NCBI GenBank assembly: GCA_029007785.1
Contig: JAQXIM010000102.1
Location: forward strand, 1 to 64,000
Source: Clostridiales bacterium
Lineage (GTDB): Bacteria; Bacillota; Clostridia; Lachnospirales; Lachnospiraceae
DNA length: 64,000 bases
Direction: 5' to 3'
How positions within the stretch are numbered: the first letter of the stretch is position 1; each line of letters opens with the position of its first letter. The notes under the pieces are model-generated. The model searched no databases, had not been told where the DNA came from, and saw nothing but the letters and a program-made list of their open reading frames with translations. Made by a program: the position numbers and the translations under genes. Below are positions 3,400 to 12,730 of the stretch, in pieces.

Positions 3400-3938
3400 A
3401 CTTTTACTCTCCCCAATTTCATCATCAAAACGCCAAATGCACCAGATATAATTACCAGAAGTACAGTGGGAATGGGGGAGAAAAAGGCAAGTACAAAAGC
3501 AGCGATGGCAATGCCGGCACAGACTGCACTGACCACACTCTTTTTCGCCATGGTAATGACAGTATTCAGCATCAGAGCGCAGACAATAATTTTGATTCCT
3601 GCTACAGCATGGGTTACATAAGGATTACTCATAAATGCATCCAAAAACATGGCCAGAATTGATACGATGATCAGGGACGGACTTACCATTCCCAGAGTAG
3701 CGGCAATGGCACCAGGGATTCCCTTGCGTTTGTATCCAACAAATGTTGCCGTATTGACGGCGATAATGCCGGGGGTACACTGACCCACCGCATAGTAATT
3801 AAGCAGTTCCTCTTCTTCAACCCAGTGTTTTTTATCGATCAGTTCGTATTTCAGCATCGGCAGCATGGTCAGTCCGCCGCCGAAAGTCAGTCCGCCGATT
3901 CGAAAAAAAGTACAATACAGCTGCAGTAATTCCTTCAT
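3396..3938 (-). CDS. Chromate transporter family protein, subunit A
   Basis: A 180-aa membrane protein, the other half of a split CHR transporter. It shows FFRIGGLTFGGGLTMLPML and QCTPGIIAVNTATFVG, homologous to the motifs of its partner, which is how short CHR subunits are recognised; the two are homologous but oppositely oriented in the membrane in studied cases. The ATGA overlap with the downstream gene shows coupling. The ribosome site before the start is weak. A promoter at 4086-4114 gives a leader of about 140 nt. Confidence 0.88.
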   Translation of the reverse strand: MKELLQLYCTFFRIGGLTFGGGLTMLPMLKYELIDKKHWVEEEELLNYYAVGQCTPGIIAVNTATFVGYKRKGIPGAIAATLGMVSPSLIIVSILAMFLDAFMSNPYVTHAVAGIKIIVCALMLNTVITMAKKSVVSAVCAGIAIAAFVLAFFSPIPTVLLVIISGAFGVLMMKLGRVKV

Positions 3939-4029
3939 AGAAATATATCGTTCCGTTTTTTAGAAAGAAATGGATATAATGTGTTTCATGTTCTCTCACA
4001 AAAACGGATGGTCTCCTTTCTCACCAAAG

Positions 4030-4052
4030 GGAAATCGGAAAAAAATCCGATT
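4030..4052 (-). other. Leader hairpin of the chromate operon
   Basis: ATCGGA and TCCGAT flank a homopolymeric A stretch (T on the minus strand) within the leader between the promoter and the first chr gene. The loop is a run of U in the transcript. Role unknown. Confidence 0.35.
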
Positions 4053-4085
4053 GGCAGATTTTGCATTCTGTTTTACATCCTTTTT

Positions 4086-4114
4086 GTTATATAAAATATG
4101 TCATATTCTGTCAA
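4086..4114 (-). promoter_or_regulatory. Sigma-A type promoter for the chromate genes
   Basis: On the minus strand TTGACA (4114-4109) and TATAAC (4091-4086) are separated by exactly 17 bases. The start should lie near 4079, about 140 nt upstream of the first start codon. Confidence 0.7.
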
Positions 4115-4124
4115 GAGTCAAGAT

Positions 4125-4205
4125 GGATTCCAGCGGATATTTATAGTATATGGATTCCCTCGGATATTTATAGTGTATGGACTCTGTTGGATTTTATATA
4201 GAGGA
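4125..4205. repeat. 27-bp tandem repeat, about 2.5 copies
   Basis: GGATTCC...CGGATATTTATAGT recurs at 4125 and 4152, with a decayed third start (GGACTC) at 4179. It lies just behind the chr promoter. No coding potential. Confidence 0.75.
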
Positions 4206-4295
4206 CTTATAGATAATTTGTAGATACTTTTTAGAGATTTCATGCCGATTCTTACGGAAGATCGATCTGAGTAATTACCACCAGCTTCAGAAACT

Positions 4296-4428
4296 AAGGA
4301 AAAGTAAAAAAGAATGGAAAGAAAAGTGTATAATTATATGAAAATATTGCATGACAGGCAAAGAAGTTGTATGCTAGAAAAGTGAGAGATACAATATTAA
4401 GAATATTGTGACTGTTTTACTTTTCCTT
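4296..4428. repeat. 133-bp element with 14-bp perfect inverted ends
   Basis: AAGGAAAAGTAAAA (4296-4309) is matched by its exact reverse complement at 4415-4428. Inside are a perfect 8-bp hairpin ACAATATT/AATATTGT (4391-4409) and a further GCATG/TATGC pairing. No ORF fits. It may be a MITE-like remnant or a structured RNA. It lies in a stretch of about 1 kb (3939-5014) without a gene. Confidence 0.55.
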
Positions 4429-4584
4429 CATCGGTCAAATATCATATAGAGCAGTGTGGGAGCATAAAACTGGAAGATTAATCTGGAAGATAAAACGGAA
4501 AGTGATGCCGCAGAAGGTAATACAGGAAAACAAATGTCATAAAAGAAAATAAACGAAAACAATTACGAAGATGGCACAATGAGA

Positions 4585-4800
4585 AAGCAATTATCATAGA
4601 GCGTAACACTATAGAAATCAATTTCCAAAGTAAGTAATACCGAAGAAAATACTATAAAAAGCAATTGCCAAGCAGTAGTCCTGAAGAAGATACTAAAGAA
4701 AGCAATTACCAAAGCAAGTAATACCGAAGAAAGAAATACCATAGAAATCAATACTATAGAAATCAATACCCAAAAGCAAATACCGTAAAAAGTAAAAAAC
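4585..4800. repeat. Degenerate purine-rich repeats
   Basis: Irregular units built from words such as AAGCAATTACCAA, GTAATACCGAAGAAA and ATAGAAATCAATAC recur several times. Open frames across it on the minus strand are low-complexity Phe/Ser/Ile-rich and are not credible genes. Confidence 0.6.
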
Positions 4801-4874
4801 TACATTTGAGATGAAAAGAAATACAATCAGTGGTGGGTTCCTTTTTATAAATAAATGTATGGGGGAATCAAAGA

Positions 4875-5000
4875 AGATATAAGAAACATAAGAAATGCAA
4901 GAAAATGCATGAGAACACAAGGAAACGCAAGCGAATAAAACAAAACACAAAAAACATAAGAAAAAATGAGAAAATATAAGAGAATGAAAGATAATGTAAG
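4875..5000. repeat. Short A/G-rich degenerate repeat before the ybjQ-like gene
   Basis: Units of 8 to 11 bases of the type AACATAAGAAA and ACACAAGGAAA run up to the ribosome site at 5001. It forms the leader of the downstream gene and has no coding potential. Confidence 0.5.
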
Positions 5001-6584: not shown

Positions 6585-6811
6585 AAGAACAAGACGAATA
6601 TCTGAGTAATCAGAACGAATCGATATATCAGAAGATATCCGCAGGTGATGTATATCAAAGACATCAGAATGTATCCGGAGGCAAGATGAATCAATGGACC
6701 AGAATGTATCTGCAGGTATGGGGAATCAATGAAAGAAGTATTTATGGAATCAGAGTATACCTGAAAAACAGGATGTGTTAATAATGGAGTGTCTGCAATA
6801 AGGATGTATCA
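6585..6811. other. Spacer with degenerate repeats
   Basis: Words such as ATCAGAATGTATC, GAATGTATCTGCAGG and AGGATGTATCAATGA recur. No ORF or clear terminator. It forms the leader of the ABC-like unit. Confidence 0.4.
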
Positions 6812-8218
6812 ATGAGAAAAGAAGAATATATCAGGGTGTTTCAGCTCAAGAAAAAAGTACGGGAAAATCAGATTTTTGAATTTCTTGATCTGACGGTTTA
6901 TGCCAGAGAAACGGCAGGATTAGTGGGCGATGAGAACTCCGGTGTGGATCATCTGTGTCGTATTTTTGCAGGTGAGTCGGGGTATCAGTCAGGACGCCTT
7001 TACATAAAAGGAAAAATCCAATCTGTTTGGCAGCAGAAGGATGCCTATCGGGAAGGGATTTATCGGATTCATCGGAAAAGTCAGCTTCTGGAGACCATGA
7101 ATATTGCTGAAAATCTATGTCTGATTCGTCGATGGAAAGAAGTTCCGTTGTCAGAACGTTGGAAAGTCAAGGATTTCCGGCTTCATTTGCTGGCTTCCGA
7201 GTATCTGGAAGAGTGGGGGATGAAAATCGATACCAGAAAATATCCGGGAGAGTTGACCGCTGCAGAACGGTTGATCATTATGATTATTCGGGCCGAAATG
7301 TGCGGCTGCCGATATTTGATTCTGGATCATGTATGTGCAGCAGCCATTGAAGAAAACGCAGAATTACTTAGTTGGATTCTCCTTTGTCTCAGAGAAAGGG
7401 GGATTGGAGTTCTGACGGCGGAAAGCCGCCCGGAATTGATTGAAAAATGTGTGGATCGGATGATTATTATGAAAGAAGGTCAGCTGGTCGGTGATTATTA
7501 TGGTGACGAGTATCGCCCTCAAACGGTTCGAAAGCTTTTGACAGGAACTATTGTTCAGACCGGGGACAGGAAAAAAAATGCAGACCGGAAAAGATGGAGC
7601 CGAAAATTAAGGCAATGGATGGGAAAGGAACCTTTAACTCTATCTGCCGGAGAAATACTGGGAATTCAGACGGAAAATGGTTGGAAAGCTTTTCTCTCGA
7701 ATTATGATGGCATCCGGGAAGAAGGAGAGAAAACGATGAATCCTATTGCTCTGATGCTGGGAGAGAGCCGACAGTATGGGCTTCATGAGGATTGGAGTCG
7801 ATGTGAAAATCTGGCCCAATACTCGTTCCCTCAAGTTCGTAGTAGGGTTGGAATTCTCCCCATGCGAGTGATGGAGTATTTATATCGGAAGTCCTGGAAG
7901 GGGACAAAAGAAGAGGACAAGGCCTGGGAGACCCTGGAGGGAATGAGCAGCGAGGACAAATTTTGTCTTGCCTTGGAAAGTTTGCGGATTACTCAGCCAA
8001 AAGCCATTGTGATGGTGGAAATCAGCCCGGATATGGATGTGGTACATCTGGAGACGTTTTGCAGGAAAATAAAAGAACTTTCCAGTGAGGGGATCTCTGT
8101 TGTTTTTCTGGATCCGCCCCAGGCGTTGGTACGGAAAATCTGTCAGCGACTGCTGAAAATGAAAGGTACGGAAGTTGAAAGAGAATACAGCAGAGAAGAA
8201 ACTCAGAGATTTTCGTAA
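6812..8218 (+). CDS. Degenerate double-domain ABC ATPase (sugar type), likely inactive
   Basis: A 468-aa protein with the length and two-domain layout of MglA/RbsA-type sugar ABC ATPases, but the catalytic motifs are lost. Domain 1 aligns GLVGDENSGVDHL (36-48) with the Walker A loop: Lys is Val45 and the Ser/Thr pair is Asp46-His47. The signature is reduced to GELTA (146-150), Walker B keeps Asp172 but the catalytic Glu is His173, and the H-loop His is Ser205. Domain 2 has no P-loop, and its Walker B region reads IVMVEISPDMD. Structural landmarks such as MNIAENL and KCVDRMIIMKEGQLVGDY remain, so it is not a random decayed gene. It precedes a binding protein, permease and two-component pair. 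It may be a structural or signalling subunit. The ribosome site is weak. Confidence 0.75.
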   Translation: MRKEEYIRVFQLKKKVRENQIFEFLDLTVYARETAGLVGDENSGVDHLCRIFAGESGYQSGRLYIKGKIQSVWQQKDAYREGIYRIHRKSQLLETMNIAENLCLIRRWKEVPLSERWKVKDFRLHLLASEYLEEWGMKIDTRKYPGELTAAERLIIMIIRAEMCGCRYLILDHVCAAAIEENAELLSWILLCLRERGIGVLTAESRPELIEKCVDRMIIMKEGQLVGDYYGDEYRPQTVRKLLTGTIVQTGDRKKNADRKRWSRKLRQWMGKEPLTLSAGEILGIQTENGWKAFLSNYDGIREEGEKTMNPIALMLGESRQYGLHEDWSRCENLAQYSFPQVRSRVGILPMRVMEYLYRKSWKGTKEEDKAWETLEGMSSEDKFCLALESLRITQPKAIVMVEISPDMDVVHLETFCRKIKELSSEGISVVFLDPPQALVRKICQRLLKMKGTEVEREYSREETQRFS

Positions 8219-8253: not shown

Positions 8254-9285
8254 GTGAAAAAGAAAAGATGGCTGTGGACGCTCCTGGTGTTGTTGATCAT
8301 CCTGCTCTGTCTTGGCAGCCGATACGGAGGCCGGGAAAAGGACGGAGTAACGGTGGGTCTCCTGGCATCTGAGTTTTCCAATGAATTTATGATTGCCATG
8401 CAGAGTGGTTTTGTTGATCGGGCAGAAGAACTGGGCTTTCAAGTCGTTATGAAAATCAGTGGAAGTCATACAGAAACACAACTGAATCAGCTGCAGGATC
8501 TTTTGGTCCAGGACGTGGATGCCCTTGCGATTCGTGTCAATAATGAGACGGGGGGAAGGGAACTTTTGGAAGCAGCCGCAGAGGCCAATGTACCGGTATT
8601 CCTTTACGATACCAAGCCAAGTACCGACAAGTATGTCAGTCTGATTACAACAGATAACTATGAAATTGGCTGTATTGCAGCCAGAGCCATGGGAGAACGG
8701 ATGGAAAAAAAGAAGCAAAAGACCGAAGGAGGAAAGATTGTTGTATTTTCCGGTTCGGAGAGACTGAGTACCCATTCTGACAGAGCAAATGGATTTCTGG
8801 ATACCATAGCAGAGGAATTTCCTGAAATAGAGGTAGCAGAGGTTTGTAAGACTTTTCGTTCTGAGGATACTCTGGATACCGCTCAGGATATACTGAGCAA
8901 GTATGGAGAAGAACTGGATGGAGTCTATCTTGTCACCGACTATATGACAACGGTGGTCCTGGAGGCCATTGAGAGAGCCGGATACGAGGCATGGACCGAA
9001 GAAAAGGAAGGGATGATAATCATTGGTACCGACGGAAATCCGGATATGATTCAGGCACTTCGGGAAGGACGGATTTCGGGAGATGTTTCCCAGAATGCGG
9101 AACGTCTGGGGGCCGATACGGCAGAAATCATTGCCAGATACCTGTCAGGCCGATCGGTGGAAGACGAATATCAGATTCCTACCATGTTGATTACTCCGGA
9201 AAATGTCGATTCACCGAAAGTACGAAGATTTGGACTTTGGGCAGATTCTTATGAAGAAAAATATGGAAACAGGAAGGACAAGTAG
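8254..9285 (+). CDS. Sugar-type periplasmic binding protein (LacI/RbsB fold)
   Basis: A 343-aa exported protein with a basic start and hydrophobic helix at about residues 5-20. There is no clear lipobox (ILLC is a poor match), so it may stay anchored by an uncleaved helix. The mature part follows the RbsB/Peripla_BP_4 pattern: VTVGLLASEFSNEFM, QLQDLLVQDVDALAIR, YVSLITTDNYEIG and IIIGTDGNPDMIQAL. It starts at GTG 8254 with AGAAGGGG upstream. It lies between the degenerate ATPase and the permease, in the usual order for sugar importers. The sugar or other ligand cannot be told from the sequence. Confidence 0.85.
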   Translation: MKKKRWLWTLLVLLIILLCLGSRYGGREKDGVTVGLLASEFSNEFMIAMQSGFVDRAEELGFQVVMKISGSHTETQLNQLQDLLVQDVDALAIRVNNETGGRELLEAAAEANVPVFLYDTKPSTDKYVSLITTDNYEIGCIAARAMGERMEKKKQKTEGGKIVVFSGSERLSTHSDRANGFLDTIAEEFPEIEVAEVCKTFRSEDTLDTAQDILSKYGEELDGVYLVTDYMTTVVLEAIERAGYEAWTEEKEGMIIIGTDGNPDMIQALREGRISGDVSQNAERLGADTAEIIARYLSGRSVEDEYQIPTMLITPENVDSPKVRRFGLWADSYEEKYGNRKDK

Positions 9286-9315: not shown

Positions 9316-10290
9316 ATGAAGGGGAGATATCCATATTGGCGGAGGCAGTGGGCAAGTCTTATGCCAATATGTCTGGCGATTATCATATTGGCATTATTTA
9401 TAGGATGGAACAGCAGTGCATTTTTCACTCTCAGAAACCTACAGAATTTATTTATGAAAGCAGCATCTGCTCAGATCATGGCCTTTGGCATGACCATGCT
9501 AGCCATTGCGGGCCGCCTGGATTTGTCAGGAGCGGCAGTGATGGGATTATCACTGCTCCTTGGATTGTACGGCAGCTCATTTTTTCAGCTGCCTGCCTGG
9601 TTAACCATTCTGATCATTCTGGGATTGGGTGCTTTGATGGGCGGTTTGACCGGTTTCTTTGTGGCGAAAATCCGCATGCCTTCTTTGTTGACAACCATGG
9701 CCATTCTTCAGATTTTCCGGGGGCTCTTTTTGAGAATTAATGAGGGAACCAGCTATACAGAAATGGGCATCAGTTTTCGGTGGCTGGGGAACGGCTATAT
9801 AGGTGGTCTTGTTCCGGTATCCTTTTTGCTGGTTCTGGTGCTTATGGTGGTTTTCCAGTTTCTTTTGAGAAAAACTGTGTGGGGGTACCATATTCGGGCC
9901 ATTGGAGAGGATGATCAGGTTGCAAAAGCCGCAGGAATTCCCGTGGATCGATATGTATGGAAACTTTTTGTTTATGCCGGTATCCTGTATGGACTGGCGG
10001 CTGTAGTTTTGGCAGGAAGAATCGGTGTGGTGGATTCTTCTCTGGCAAATGGCCAGGAGTGGACGGTTTTGCCTGGAATTGTATTGGGAGGCTGTTCTTT
10101 ATATGGAGGAAAAGGCAGTTTTTTGGGCAGTTATCTTGGAATCCTGCTGTTATGTATGTTGGATAATGGGTGCAATCTGATGAATGTTTCTTCCTATTGG
10201 ACCCAACTGATACAGGGATTGATTATTTTTGCTGCAGTTTTCATGGATACATTGCCGAAATACTGGAAAGAGAGGGGAGCAGAGGAATGA
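9316..10290 (+). CDS. RbsC-like sugar ABC permease
   Basis: A 324-aa membrane protein with about eight to ten hydrophobic segments of the BPD_transp_2 family. It shows the family pattern AGRLDLSGAAVMGLS in the first third and the coupling-helix region AIGEDDQVAKAAGIPVDRY, the site where the ATPase normally docks. The loop is well kept, which suggests that binding to an ATPase-like partner is still selected even though the partner in this cluster is degenerate. AGGAGG lies before the ATG at 9316. The stop shares ATGA with the response regulator gene, so permease and regulator are co-translated. Confidence 0.87.
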   Translation: MKGRYPYWRRQWASLMPICLAIIILALFIGWNSSAFFTLRNLQNLFMKAASAQIMAFGMTMLAIAGRLDLSGAAVMGLSLLLGLYGSSFFQLPAWLTILIILGLGALMGGLTGFFVAKIRMPSLLTTMAILQIFRGLFLRINEGTSYTEMGISFRWLGNGYIGGLVPVSFLLVLVLMVVFQFLLRKTVWGYHIRAIGEDDQVAKAAGIPVDRYVWKLFVYAGILYGLAAVVLAGRIGVVDSSLANGQEWTVLPGIVLGGCSLYGGKGSFLGSYLGILLLCMLDNGCNLMNVSSYWTQLIQGLIIFAAVFMDTLPKYWKERGAEE

Positions 10291-11873
10291 TATCGGTATT
10301 AATTGCAGATGATGAATTGGCAGTATGTCAGCTGGTCAATCATTTGATTGATTGGGACGGGCTGCAGATGGAGCGGCTGGATTATGCGTCCAATGGTTTG
10401 GAAGCCTTGGAAATGATAGAAGAACAGCGGCCGGATATTGTAATCACAGATATCCGTATGCCGGGACTCAGTGGTTTGGAACTGATCAGAAAAACAAGAG
10501 AACAGAATATTCCCGTTTCCTTTATTATTATCAGCGGATATCGTGAATTTGAATTTGCCCGACAGGCGATCCAGTATGGGGTTGAGGATTATTTGCTGAA
10601 ACCCATTCAGGAAAAGGAACTGAACAGTCTGCTCTATCGTCTCGGCAGTCAGATTCAGAAAGAGAGAACTCAGAAATCGGAAGAGATTTCTTCTTCGGAT
10701 TACCAGACAGAGGTAGAAGCATCGGTAAGAAAACGATGGCTGGATCAGATCTTTCGGGGAGAAATTCTCGGTCTTGGAAAAATTGATGATATCAACCGTC
10801 AGTACTCCTATCATTTTTGTCAGGGTGATTTTGTTGTATGGAAACTTCGCATCTGCAGCCAAGAACCTAACCAGGAGAGTTCGGTTCCTTTGCTTCTTCC
10901 TCCACTGATAGAAAGCTTTAAGGAAACCATGAGCTCATTCTTTGTGGAAATGGAAGGAATATTCGATGAGAATCGTGGACATTTTCTGGCAAATGCCCTG
11001 GACAGTGACGGAAGAAGAGAAGAATTGTGGCATCAGGCGGCAGAAGACTGGAGAGAAAAGCAGCAATCCAGGTATGGTGATTTTTTAATTACTTTAGCCG
11101 GCAGCCGGAAGTTTTCCAATCTTGCCGCATTCCGGGATGCCGACCGGGAGACGGAAAATTCCATCTGTAAAGGTCTTTGGCTGGGGATGGATCACTATTT
11201 CCGGGGAATCGGCATATCCTCCGAATCCATCTGGAATTCCTCACTGGAAAATCAATTGGAGAAGGTTTTTCTCTCATTGGATCGGGAGAAGACAAAGAAT
11301 GAAATCCACAGGCTGGTGGATCATCAGGGAAAACAGGATCCGGAGAATTATCTGGCCCGTTATGAGGTACTGAATTTCTGTATCAGTACCCTGGAACGAT
11401 GTGTAAGTCAGATGGCAGGGACAGAAACCGAGGAAAACAGAAATTTTCGTTTTCTCTGCAAAAAATGCTCTTCCTGGAATCAGATTATAAAAATATCGGA
11501 AGCTTACCAGGAGGAATTGCTGGAACAGGCCATTTCTTCCCGAAAAGTTCAGGTGGCTCTGCCGATTAGAACCATTCAGCAATATATGAAAGAGCATTAT
11601 GCGGAAAAGCTGACCCTGGAAGACATGGCCGAACTGGTGCATCTGAATCCGGCTTATGTCAGCGGTTTATTCAAAAAAGAAGTGGGAATGAACTTTTCAG
11701 ACTATCTCACGGATCTTCGGCTGGAGCAGGCAAAGGTGTATTTGCGTCAGGCAGAATGGAATCTTTCGGAGGTGGCTGCCCTGGTGGGTTACAGCGATGT
11801 TCGCTATTTTAGCCGAACATTTACCAGGGTGGTAGGAATTACTCCCAAAGAATATAGGAGGTTGCATCGGTGA
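10287..11873 (+). CDS. Response regulator with AraC-type DNA-binding domain
   Basis: A 528-aa regulator. Residues 1-120 form a receiver domain: acidic pair D8-D9, phosphate-accepting Asp55 in ITDIRMPG, and the lysine of YLLKPIQ. A middle region without known motifs follows, then two AraC helix-turn-helix motifs over about the last 100 residues (LTLEDMAELVHLNPAYVSGLF and the typical VGYSDVRYFSRTFTRVVG). This is the YesN type that pairs with LytS/YesM kinases. The ATG at 10287 is chosen because the receiver domain begins there, overlapping the permease stop. It probably controls its own operon or sugar genes elsewhere. Confidence 0.92.
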   Translation: MISVLIADDELAVCQLVNHLIDWDGLQMERLDYASNGLEALEMIEEQRPDIVITDIRMPGLSGLELIRKTREQNIPVSFIIISGYREFEFARQAIQYGVEDYLLKPIQEKELNSLLYRLGSQIQKERTQKSEEISSSDYQTEVEASVRKRWLDQIFRGEILGLGKIDDINRQYSYHFCQGDFVVWKLRICSQEPNQESSVPLLLPPLIESFKETMSSFFVEMEGIFDENRGHFLANALDSDGRREELWHQAAEDWREKQQSRYGDFLITLAGSRKFSNLAAFRDADRETENSICKGLWLGMDHYFRGIGISSESIWNSSLENQLEKVFLSLDREKTKNEIHRLVDHQGKQDPENYLARYEVLNFCISTLERCVSQMAGTETEENRNFRFLCKKCSSWNQIIKISEAYQEELLEQAISSRKVQVALPIRTIQQYMKEHYAEKLTLEDMAELVHLNPAYVSGLFKKEVGMNFSDYLTDLRLEQAKVYLRQAEWNLSEVAALVGYSDVRYFSRTFTRVVGITPKEYRRLHR

Positions 11874-12730
11874 TGGGATTTCATTGGAAAAACTGGTGGA
11901 ACGGCCAGCGGTTTCTGCGGGCTCTTCGCAGTTTGGGTGTGGATTTCTCTCAGGTGAAAGAAGAGCCGGACTCAGAAACCTGGGTAAAAAAGGTGCTGGA
12001 ACAGACAGCCTGGGCTACAGATTCGGAATATTCTTCCAATTTACTGCGAACTCAGGCTCAGATTAATGCACTTCAAAGTCAGATTAACCCCCATTTTCTG
12101 TACAACACCCTGGAAATGATCCGCGGACAGGCTCTGGATCGAGGTGTTCCGGAAATTGCAGATATGACAGAAATTCTCTCCAATATGTTTCGCTACAATG
12201 TAAGTCAGTCAGAGAAACTGGCCACCTGGGAGCAGGAAATGGAAAATGTCCGGAACTATTTTCAGATACAGCAATATCGTTTTCAGGGACGTTTTATCCT
12301 TCAGGAAATATATGACAGGAACGATCCGGAACTGATGAACTGCAGCATTCCCAGGCTTTCTCTCCAACCCATCGTAGAAAATGCTATTTATCATGGATTG
12401 GAACCGAAAATGGGAAAAGGAACCGTCCAGATCCGTGTCTTTCTGACTGACGAAAGAGTTGTGATCCGTATTTCCGATGACGGTGTGGGAATGTCTTCGG
12501 AGACAGCAGAAAAGCTTCGGTATGCCCTTCGCCAGGGCGGTTTTGAGAGCAGCGAGCATTCCGGCGGGAAACGAATTGCTCTCGTCAACATCAATCAGCG
12601 GCTGAAATTGTACTACGGTGCAGAATATGGCGTTACCTTCAGCAGTGCGGAAGGTGAAGGTACCGTGGTGGAAATGACCGTACCGCACCAGGTGCCAAAG
12701 GGATCAGATCAAATGAATCAAAAGGAATAA
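11870..12730 (+). CDS. LytS/YesM-type histidine kinase without a sensor domain
   Basis: A 286-aa kinase. The phosphoacceptor is His75 in SQINPHFLYNTL; the ATPase domain has the N box QPIVENAIYHGL, G1 box SDDGVGM and a weak G2 box around KRIALVNINQRL. YesM-type kinases normally carry two membrane helices, an extracytoplasmic sensor and HAMP, about 570 aa in all. Here only about 60 soluble residues precede the His-kinase domain, and no membrane segment is seen. Start is GTG 11870 or ATG 11873, both just after AGGAGG at 11856-11861, overlapping the regulator stop. The signal must therefore come from a partner, most simply the transporter-like proteins of the same operon (inference). Confidence 0.88.
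   Translation: MMGFHWKNWWNGQRFLRALRSLGVDFSQVKEEPDSETWVKKVLEQTAWATDSEYSSNLLRTQAQINALQSQINPHFLYNTLEMIRGQALDRGVPEIADMTEILSNMFRYNVSQSEKLATWEQEMENVRNYFQIQQYRFQGRFILQEIYDRNDPELMNCSIPRLSLQPIVENAIYHGLEPKMGKGTVQIRVFLTDERVVIRISDDGVGMSSETAEKLRYALRQGGFESSEHSGGKRIALVNINQRLKLYYGAEYGVTFSSAEGEGTVVEMTVPHQVPKGSDQMNQKE

Follow-up and report, generated by a model that had tools for sequence, protein, structure and literature searches.

The input of histidine kinases that lack sensor domains is often unknown. In the Bce modules (BceAB with BceS/BceR), an ABC complex without net transport senses on behalf of a kinase that has no sensing domain (PMC10314905; PMC7828314). BceA hydrolyzes ATP, and signaling is proposed to follow the BceA cycle (PMC10314905). 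BceS carries a HAMP domain and spans the membrane with two helices; the modules sense peptide antibiotics and have no binding protein. In Clostridia, a solute-binding protein can also work with a two-component pair, as in CuaD-CuaS-CuaR (PMC10384115). There, as in XylFII-LytS-YesN, the binding protein touches the extracellular domain of the kinase. Finally, there are the RbsABC importers, with ATPases of the RbsA/MglA/XylG type. One ATP site is degenerate across the RbsA family as a whole (PMC11466899).

We analyzed an operon that shares something with each of these systems. It lies in a 64,000-nucleotide stretch of a contig from a Clostridiales bacterium of the Lachnospiraceae (JAQXIM010000102.1); we call this whole stretch the window. 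As in RbsABC importers, a protein of RbsA-like length with two fused nucleotide-binding domains is encoded next to RbsB-like and RbsC-like genes. In outline, the operon also resembles the Bce modules, with an ABC-type complex as the sensor of a kinase that has no sensing domain. (The gene linkage is observed; the contact is inferred.) Unlike BceS, the window's kinase has no transmembrane helices, and its permease is of the BPD_transp_2/RbsC type, which is unrelated to the BceB type. As in XylFII-LytS-YesN, a sugar-type binding protein and a YesN-type regulator are in one operon, but the kinase has no extracellular part for a binding protein to touch, and the operon also includes a permease and a pseudo-ATPase. 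We found no description of a pseudo-RbsA as the partner of a kinase in the literature that we searched (full text, open-licence papers only).

A double ABC protein with no recognizable ATP site

The genes are ordered pseudo-ATPase, binding protein, permease, YesN-type regulator, kinase (Table 1), and the operon does not include an intact RbsA.

Table 1. Features of the operon and of the region upstream of it, in window coordinates.
Feature	Position	Strand	Remarks
Three 32-nt direct repeats (CAGAATGTATCYGSAGG-like)	6629..6731	+	36 and 35 bp spacing, upstream of operon
Pseudo-ATPase, degenerate RbsA/MglA-type double ABC protein	6812..8218	+	468 aa; ABC fold in both halves (predicted), catalytic residues absent
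Q-loop equivalent and following segment, residues 81-112 (EGIYRIHRKSQLLETMNIAENLCLIRRWKEVP)	7052..7147	+	best conserved part within the clade
Walker B equivalent LILDHVC	7316..7336	+	residues 169-175; His173 replaces the catalytic Glu, Asp172 retained
Sugar-type substrate-binding protein (Peripla_BP_4)	8254..9285	+	N-terminal hydrophobic segment, no clear lipobox
Permease, RbsC/AraH type (BPD_transp_2)	9316..10290	+	intact by conserved positions
YesN-type response regulator (receiver and AraC helix-turn-helix)	10287..11873	+	ATGA overlap with permease gene
Histidine kinase (PF06580 and HATPase_c)	11870..12730	+	286 aa; overlaps regulator gene

The pseudo-ATPase gene has an ATG start and an open frame. 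The sequence-only reading of this gene described a double ABC ATPase that had lost its catalytic residues in both halves, and every residue it cited was correct when we rechecked. The P-loop is replaced by GDENSGVDH (from residue 39), with Val45 at the position of the Walker A lysine, followed by Asp46 and His47. The signature equivalent is LTAAER (at 148) and the H-loop equivalent is LTAESRP, with Ser205 instead of histidine. The signatures are gone from both halves, and only one of the ten motif features that we scored is retained (the aspartate of Walker B). A competent ATP site would combine Walker A and B of the first half with LSGG of the second half, and the Lys, Glu, His, and LSGG are missing. 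By its motifs, the protein has no recognizable ATP site; its activity was not measured.

Some of the absent residues are also absent from intact RbsA. In the consensus of 48 intact copies, the second half has GxxGAGRT rather than GKT, with arginine in place of the Walker A lysine, and it has serine for the H-loop histidine. (The RbsA of B. subtilis also lacks the second-half Walker A lysine; PMC11466899.) So although the loss in both halves is real, these two absences do not count towards it. Measured against its own family, the first half has truly lost Lys, Gln, Glu, and His, and the second half LSGG, Asp, and Glu. In these losses, in its link to a kinase, and in having no intact RbsA in its operon, the window's system is unlike the RbsABC importers.

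The resemblance to RbsA and MglA that the sequence-only reading had reported is also borne out. The nearest NCBIfam models are the RbsA, MglA, and YtfR equivalogs, although their scores (50-80 bits) are far below the cut-offs (586-850), and no curated cut-off is reached (the best score is 80 bits, for a model whose cut-off is 850). Pfam's ABC_tran covers only residues 25-173, in the first half (E = 3.6e-9). Nevertheless, AlphaFold, run with 40 sequences, gave a confident fold across the entire protein (mean pLDDT 87.5) and in both halves, and the second half by itself reached a pLDDT of 87.3 and a pTM of 0.84. In a structure search, the first half matched LptB (Z 25.0, rmsd 2.6, 233 residues), the second half matched PhnK (Z 17.1, rmsd 3.1, 198 residues), and the whole chain matched double ATPases such as DppD. 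(No RbsA chain was among the matches listed, which carries no weight on family membership.) Given these matches and the confident models, we predict that each half still folds as a nucleotide-binding domain but lacks the chemistry that goes with it.

As for the other genes, the binding protein is probably membrane-anchored, given the hydrophobic segment and the lack of a clear lipobox at its N terminus. The permease retains 24 of the 27 positions that are conserved in the permeases of other loci. The kinase has His75, the N box, and DxGxG. It has no transmembrane segment or sensor domain (the highest 19-residue Kyte-Doolittle mean is 0.63). In this soluble protein, the N-terminal stretch that would touch the complex is short, at about 60 residues, which speaks against the coupling role proposed below. 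The direct repeats upstream of the operon, with further 13-nt copies at 6609 and 6798, are possible sites for the YesN-type regulator.

Orthologous operons

Close relatives of the pseudo-ATPase are present in just 3 of 397 genomes of the family, only two of them besides the window's own. These two contain three orthologs: one in Cuneatibacter sp. NSJ-177, at 39% identity to the window's protein, and two in Hominifimenecus microfluidus CLA-AA-H215, at 33% identity and as a half-length copy. All three lack the same catalytic residues, and all four operons, from three genera, have the same five-gene order and open frames. The three full-length proteins have GDENSGVDH, GDETSGVEA, and EKDDSGMDA in place of the P-loop, and they share LILDHVC; in the half-length copy, the two sites read GSPSEERRA and VVLDSIG. 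The overlaps between genes, the orthologs, and the selection on the family (see below) all agree with the earlier inference that a frame open for 468 codons in a tight operon is not a decaying gene. On the strength of the open frames, the parallel loci, and the selection in the family, we also reject a frameshift or an assembly error.

Within the full-length proteins, 56% of positions in the Q-loop segment are invariant, versus 19% in the P-loop region, which is among the least conserved parts. By analogy with known ABC importers, the Q-loop segment is expected to face the permease. The best conserved component of the operon is the kinase, with about 61-68% identity between the full-length window-type operons.

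Other searches for relatives found little. A scan of contigs with the window's protein alone found nothing, a scan with the four-row alignment found only the three known loci, and the matches listed in a plasmid search were all remote proteins of the RbsA type (about 25% identity).

We also noticed that alpha/beta-hydrolase genes adjoin three of the four window-type operons. They encode secreted lipoproteins of 565-595 amino acids (L039 10290-11987, L040 2931-4718, and L041 7128-8831). The window itself has only a putative esterase of 341 amino acids, at 1610-2635.

Pseudo-ATPase genes are linked to genes for kinases without sensor domains

We searched for relatives of the kinase at the family level, the class level, within the window's genus, and at the phylum level. 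The loci were chosen by the similarity of their kinases, not by their ABC genes. The kinases fell into two groups: short ones, mostly of 280-400 amino acids, with at most two or three hydrophobic segments, sometimes none, and no extracellular domain, and long ones, of about 600 amino acids, with sensor domains. Of 77 short kinases, 74 have a non-intact RbsA-like gene in the same orientation and no more than 4 kb away, versus 2 of 26 long kinases (Fisher p = 5e-18). Within 300 bp, the counts are 64/77 and 1/26 (p = 2e-13). (One of the 74, L181, was counted because of a 285-aa ABC gene; its RbsA-like gene is on the opposite strand.) In a later set, from the window's genus and the phylum level, all ten short kinases have the RbsA-like neighbor. 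Altogether, more than 80 relatives have the same pairing, across Clostridia and beyond, and in 19 pairs the kinase and pseudo-ATPase genes overlap by ATGA. The sequence-only reading overlooked the kinase, and found it unexpected that an ATPase paired with a binding protein and a permease should be dead. The losses remain as described, but since the window's protein is one of a family of RbsA paralogs that are linked to kinases, the puzzle is removed.

There are variations on this arrangement. At L178 (8005-9015), a short kinase is followed directly by an intact RbsA, a permease, and a binding protein, with no adjoining pseudo-ATPase. Some kinase-linked ABC proteins are half-length (238-254 amino acids) with degenerate motifs: L041 1608-2372, L108 11289-12005, and L113 11276-12031. 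And L082, L084, and L106 have two permease genes, one by the pseudo-ATPase and one by an intact RbsA.

Across the family, the degree of degeneracy varies. Among 74 kinase-linked proteins, the second-half LSGG is retained in 1, the Q-loop glutamine in 6, the H-loop histidine in 15, the catalytic glutamate in 19, and the Walker A lysine in 35. Each of these residues is present in at least 66 of the 68 intact RbsAs from the same loci. (The intact RbsAs were selected partly by their P-loops, so their lysine count is true by construction.) Because 35 of the 74 keep the P-loop lysine, some family members may still bind nucleotides, though hardly the window's protein. According to the sequence-only reading, homologs with intact P-loops in both domains, next to the same genes, would have meant local decay. 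There are none in the window's clade; in the wider kinase-linked set, L094 keeps all five site residues and L101 and L183 keep four of the five. These three could be intermediate forms.

In a quick tree, all of the kinase-linked proteins are on one side of the branch that separates them from intact RbsA (support 99), and the window's clade has a support of 100. A caveat is that the branches are long, so the deeper order is uncertain and a single origin may be affected.

Members of the pseudo-ATPase family are under purifying selection

We estimated dN/dS for pairs with over 50% identity (28 pairs, of which the best 24 were examined). Omega could be computed for eight of the 24 pseudo-ATPase comparisons; values of 0.000 where dS was saturated are not estimates. 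For the four least diverged pairs (dS 0.45-1.17), omega was 0.094, 0.085, 0.053, and 0.144. The remaining four, which range from 0.101 to 0.243, are only approximate, as their dS is 1.3-3.0. The kinases in the four least diverged pairs had omegas of 0.064, 0.118, 0.076, and 0.037, and the intact RbsAs, available in three of these pairs, had omegas of 0.091, 0.013, and 0.031. The pseudo-ATPase is about as constrained as the intact RbsA in L108/L113, which are the half-length proteins, and four to five times less so in L104/L116 and L082/L084. Omegas of 0.05-0.14 in the least diverged pairs indicate that these pseudo-ATPases are under purifying selection. For the window's protein itself, dS to its orthologs is 2.1 and 3.0, which is saturated, and dN/dS is uninformative. 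With no unsaturated comparison, selection on it has to be argued from its conservation and the open frames. Thus, the proposal that selection keeps the shape without ATP hydrolysis has support from the homologs and from dN/dS in the family, but not from dN/dS of the window's protein.

We also compared evolutionary distances over 41 loci. Kinase and pseudo-ATPase distances are correlated (r = 0.83), and the partial correlation is 0.61 given the intact RbsA. The partial correlation of pseudo-ATPase and intact RbsA, given the kinase, is 0.56, and that of kinase and intact RbsA, given the pseudo-ATPase, is just 0.12. This pattern fits a putative chain from kinase to pseudo-ATPase to transporter. 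However, inheritance of entire operons would also raise the first two correlations, and the correlation of kinase and pseudo-ATPase drops to 0.34 given the regulator.

A probable signal-coupling subunit

We think it probable that the pseudo-ATPase is a non-catalytic RbsA paralog and acts as a signal-coupling subunit, with an importer-shaped complex on one side and a kinase without a sensor domain on the other.

Alternatively, the pseudo-ATPase might be a soluble scaffold or inhibitor of the kinase that stays off the permease, while the permease and the binding protein form a transporter powered by another RbsA. The strongest gene linkage is indeed with the kinase. Also, most of the kinase/pseudo-ATPase operons include an intact RbsA too, and most have a single permease gene, whose product would serve the intact RbsA. 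But a soluble scaffold would not explain why the best conserved part of the protein is the segment that is expected to face the permease, or why the second permease of L082, L084, and L106 adjoins the pseudo-ATPase. Furthermore, we saw no intact RbsA in 11 operons that have a permease and a pseudo-ATPase: the window's, L039, L040, L041, L089, L135, and five from the window's genus (L131, L225, L226, L227, and L228). In the window's operon and these ten relatives, the importer parts are limited to a binding protein, a permease that looks intact, and the pseudo-ATPase. Some of the 11 are on short contigs, so the absence applies only to the stretch that was seen. Overall, we consider a soluble scaffold unlikely.

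Could the complex still be an importer, with the pseudo-ATPase as a structural part and with a shared ATPase, or whatever nucleotide binding is left, supplying the energy? The window's permease could be driven by an ATPase from another locus, which is also an argument against a coupling subunit. The permease and the binding protein do appear intact, and many kinase-linked relatives keep the P-loop lysine. But the window's protein keeps just one motif feature, and in the genomes of the window, Cuneatibacter, and Hominifimenecus, six of the seven intact RbsA-type ATPases have their own permease on the same contig. (The seventh, C80, is near a contig end.) By a family search, the same three genomes contain six pseudo-ATPase operons with a permease and without an intact ATPase. 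Import therefore seems very unlikely to us. We give almost no credence to local decay of a once active RbsA in one lineage: close relatives are rare and the nearest ortholog found is only 39% identical, but the same losses and gene order recur in three genera with open frames, the fold is predicted with confidence in both halves, and the least diverged pairs in the family are constrained.

The neighboring genes bear on what the system is for. Next to L131, L135, and L228 are genes for TctA, which belongs to an unrelated system for carboxylate uptake. (At L131, the binding-protein gene, 3805-4959, is broken by an in-frame stop, and the frames of the permease, regulator, kinase, and pseudo-ATPase are open.) Given the adjoining TctA and hydrolase genes, and a permease with no intact ATPase beside it, these loci are better explained by a receptor in control of some other system for uptake or degradation than by an importer.

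If the pseudo-ATPase is a coupling subunit, then the membrane-anchored binding protein would capture a ligand, which we infer to be a small molecule, and dock on the permease. The pseudo-ATPase would be seated on the cytoplasmic face of the permease, where RbsA usually sits, and would relay a change in the permease's shape to the soluble kinase. (Its contacts with both the permease and the kinase are inferred, as is the direction of signaling.) The kinase would phosphorylate the YesN-type regulator, which would then turn on a gene set for uptake or degradation. The lack of transport is also an inference. We are evenly divided as to whether a pseudo-RbsA replaces the kinase's sensor domain across Clostridia and into other classes of their phylum, and the window-type importer is wholly a non-transporting receptor that feeds a soluble kinase.

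The combination of a dead ATPase and a kinase without a sensor domain, in gut-type Clostridia, suggests a transporter that has turned into a membrane sensor. If this is true, then a repurposed ABC importer with a dead ATPase as its relay would be what such a kinase senses through, and a class of pseudoenzymes would be added to bacterial signaling. Many genes in gut Clostridia would then belong to receptors instead of transporters, despite an expected annotation as "sugar ABC transporter ATP-binding" proteins. How the shape of an importer is coupled to a kinase could also be studied without an ATPase cycle, and two named strains, Hominifimenecus microfluidus CLA-AA-H215 and Cuneatibacter sp. 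NSJ-177, carry the system.
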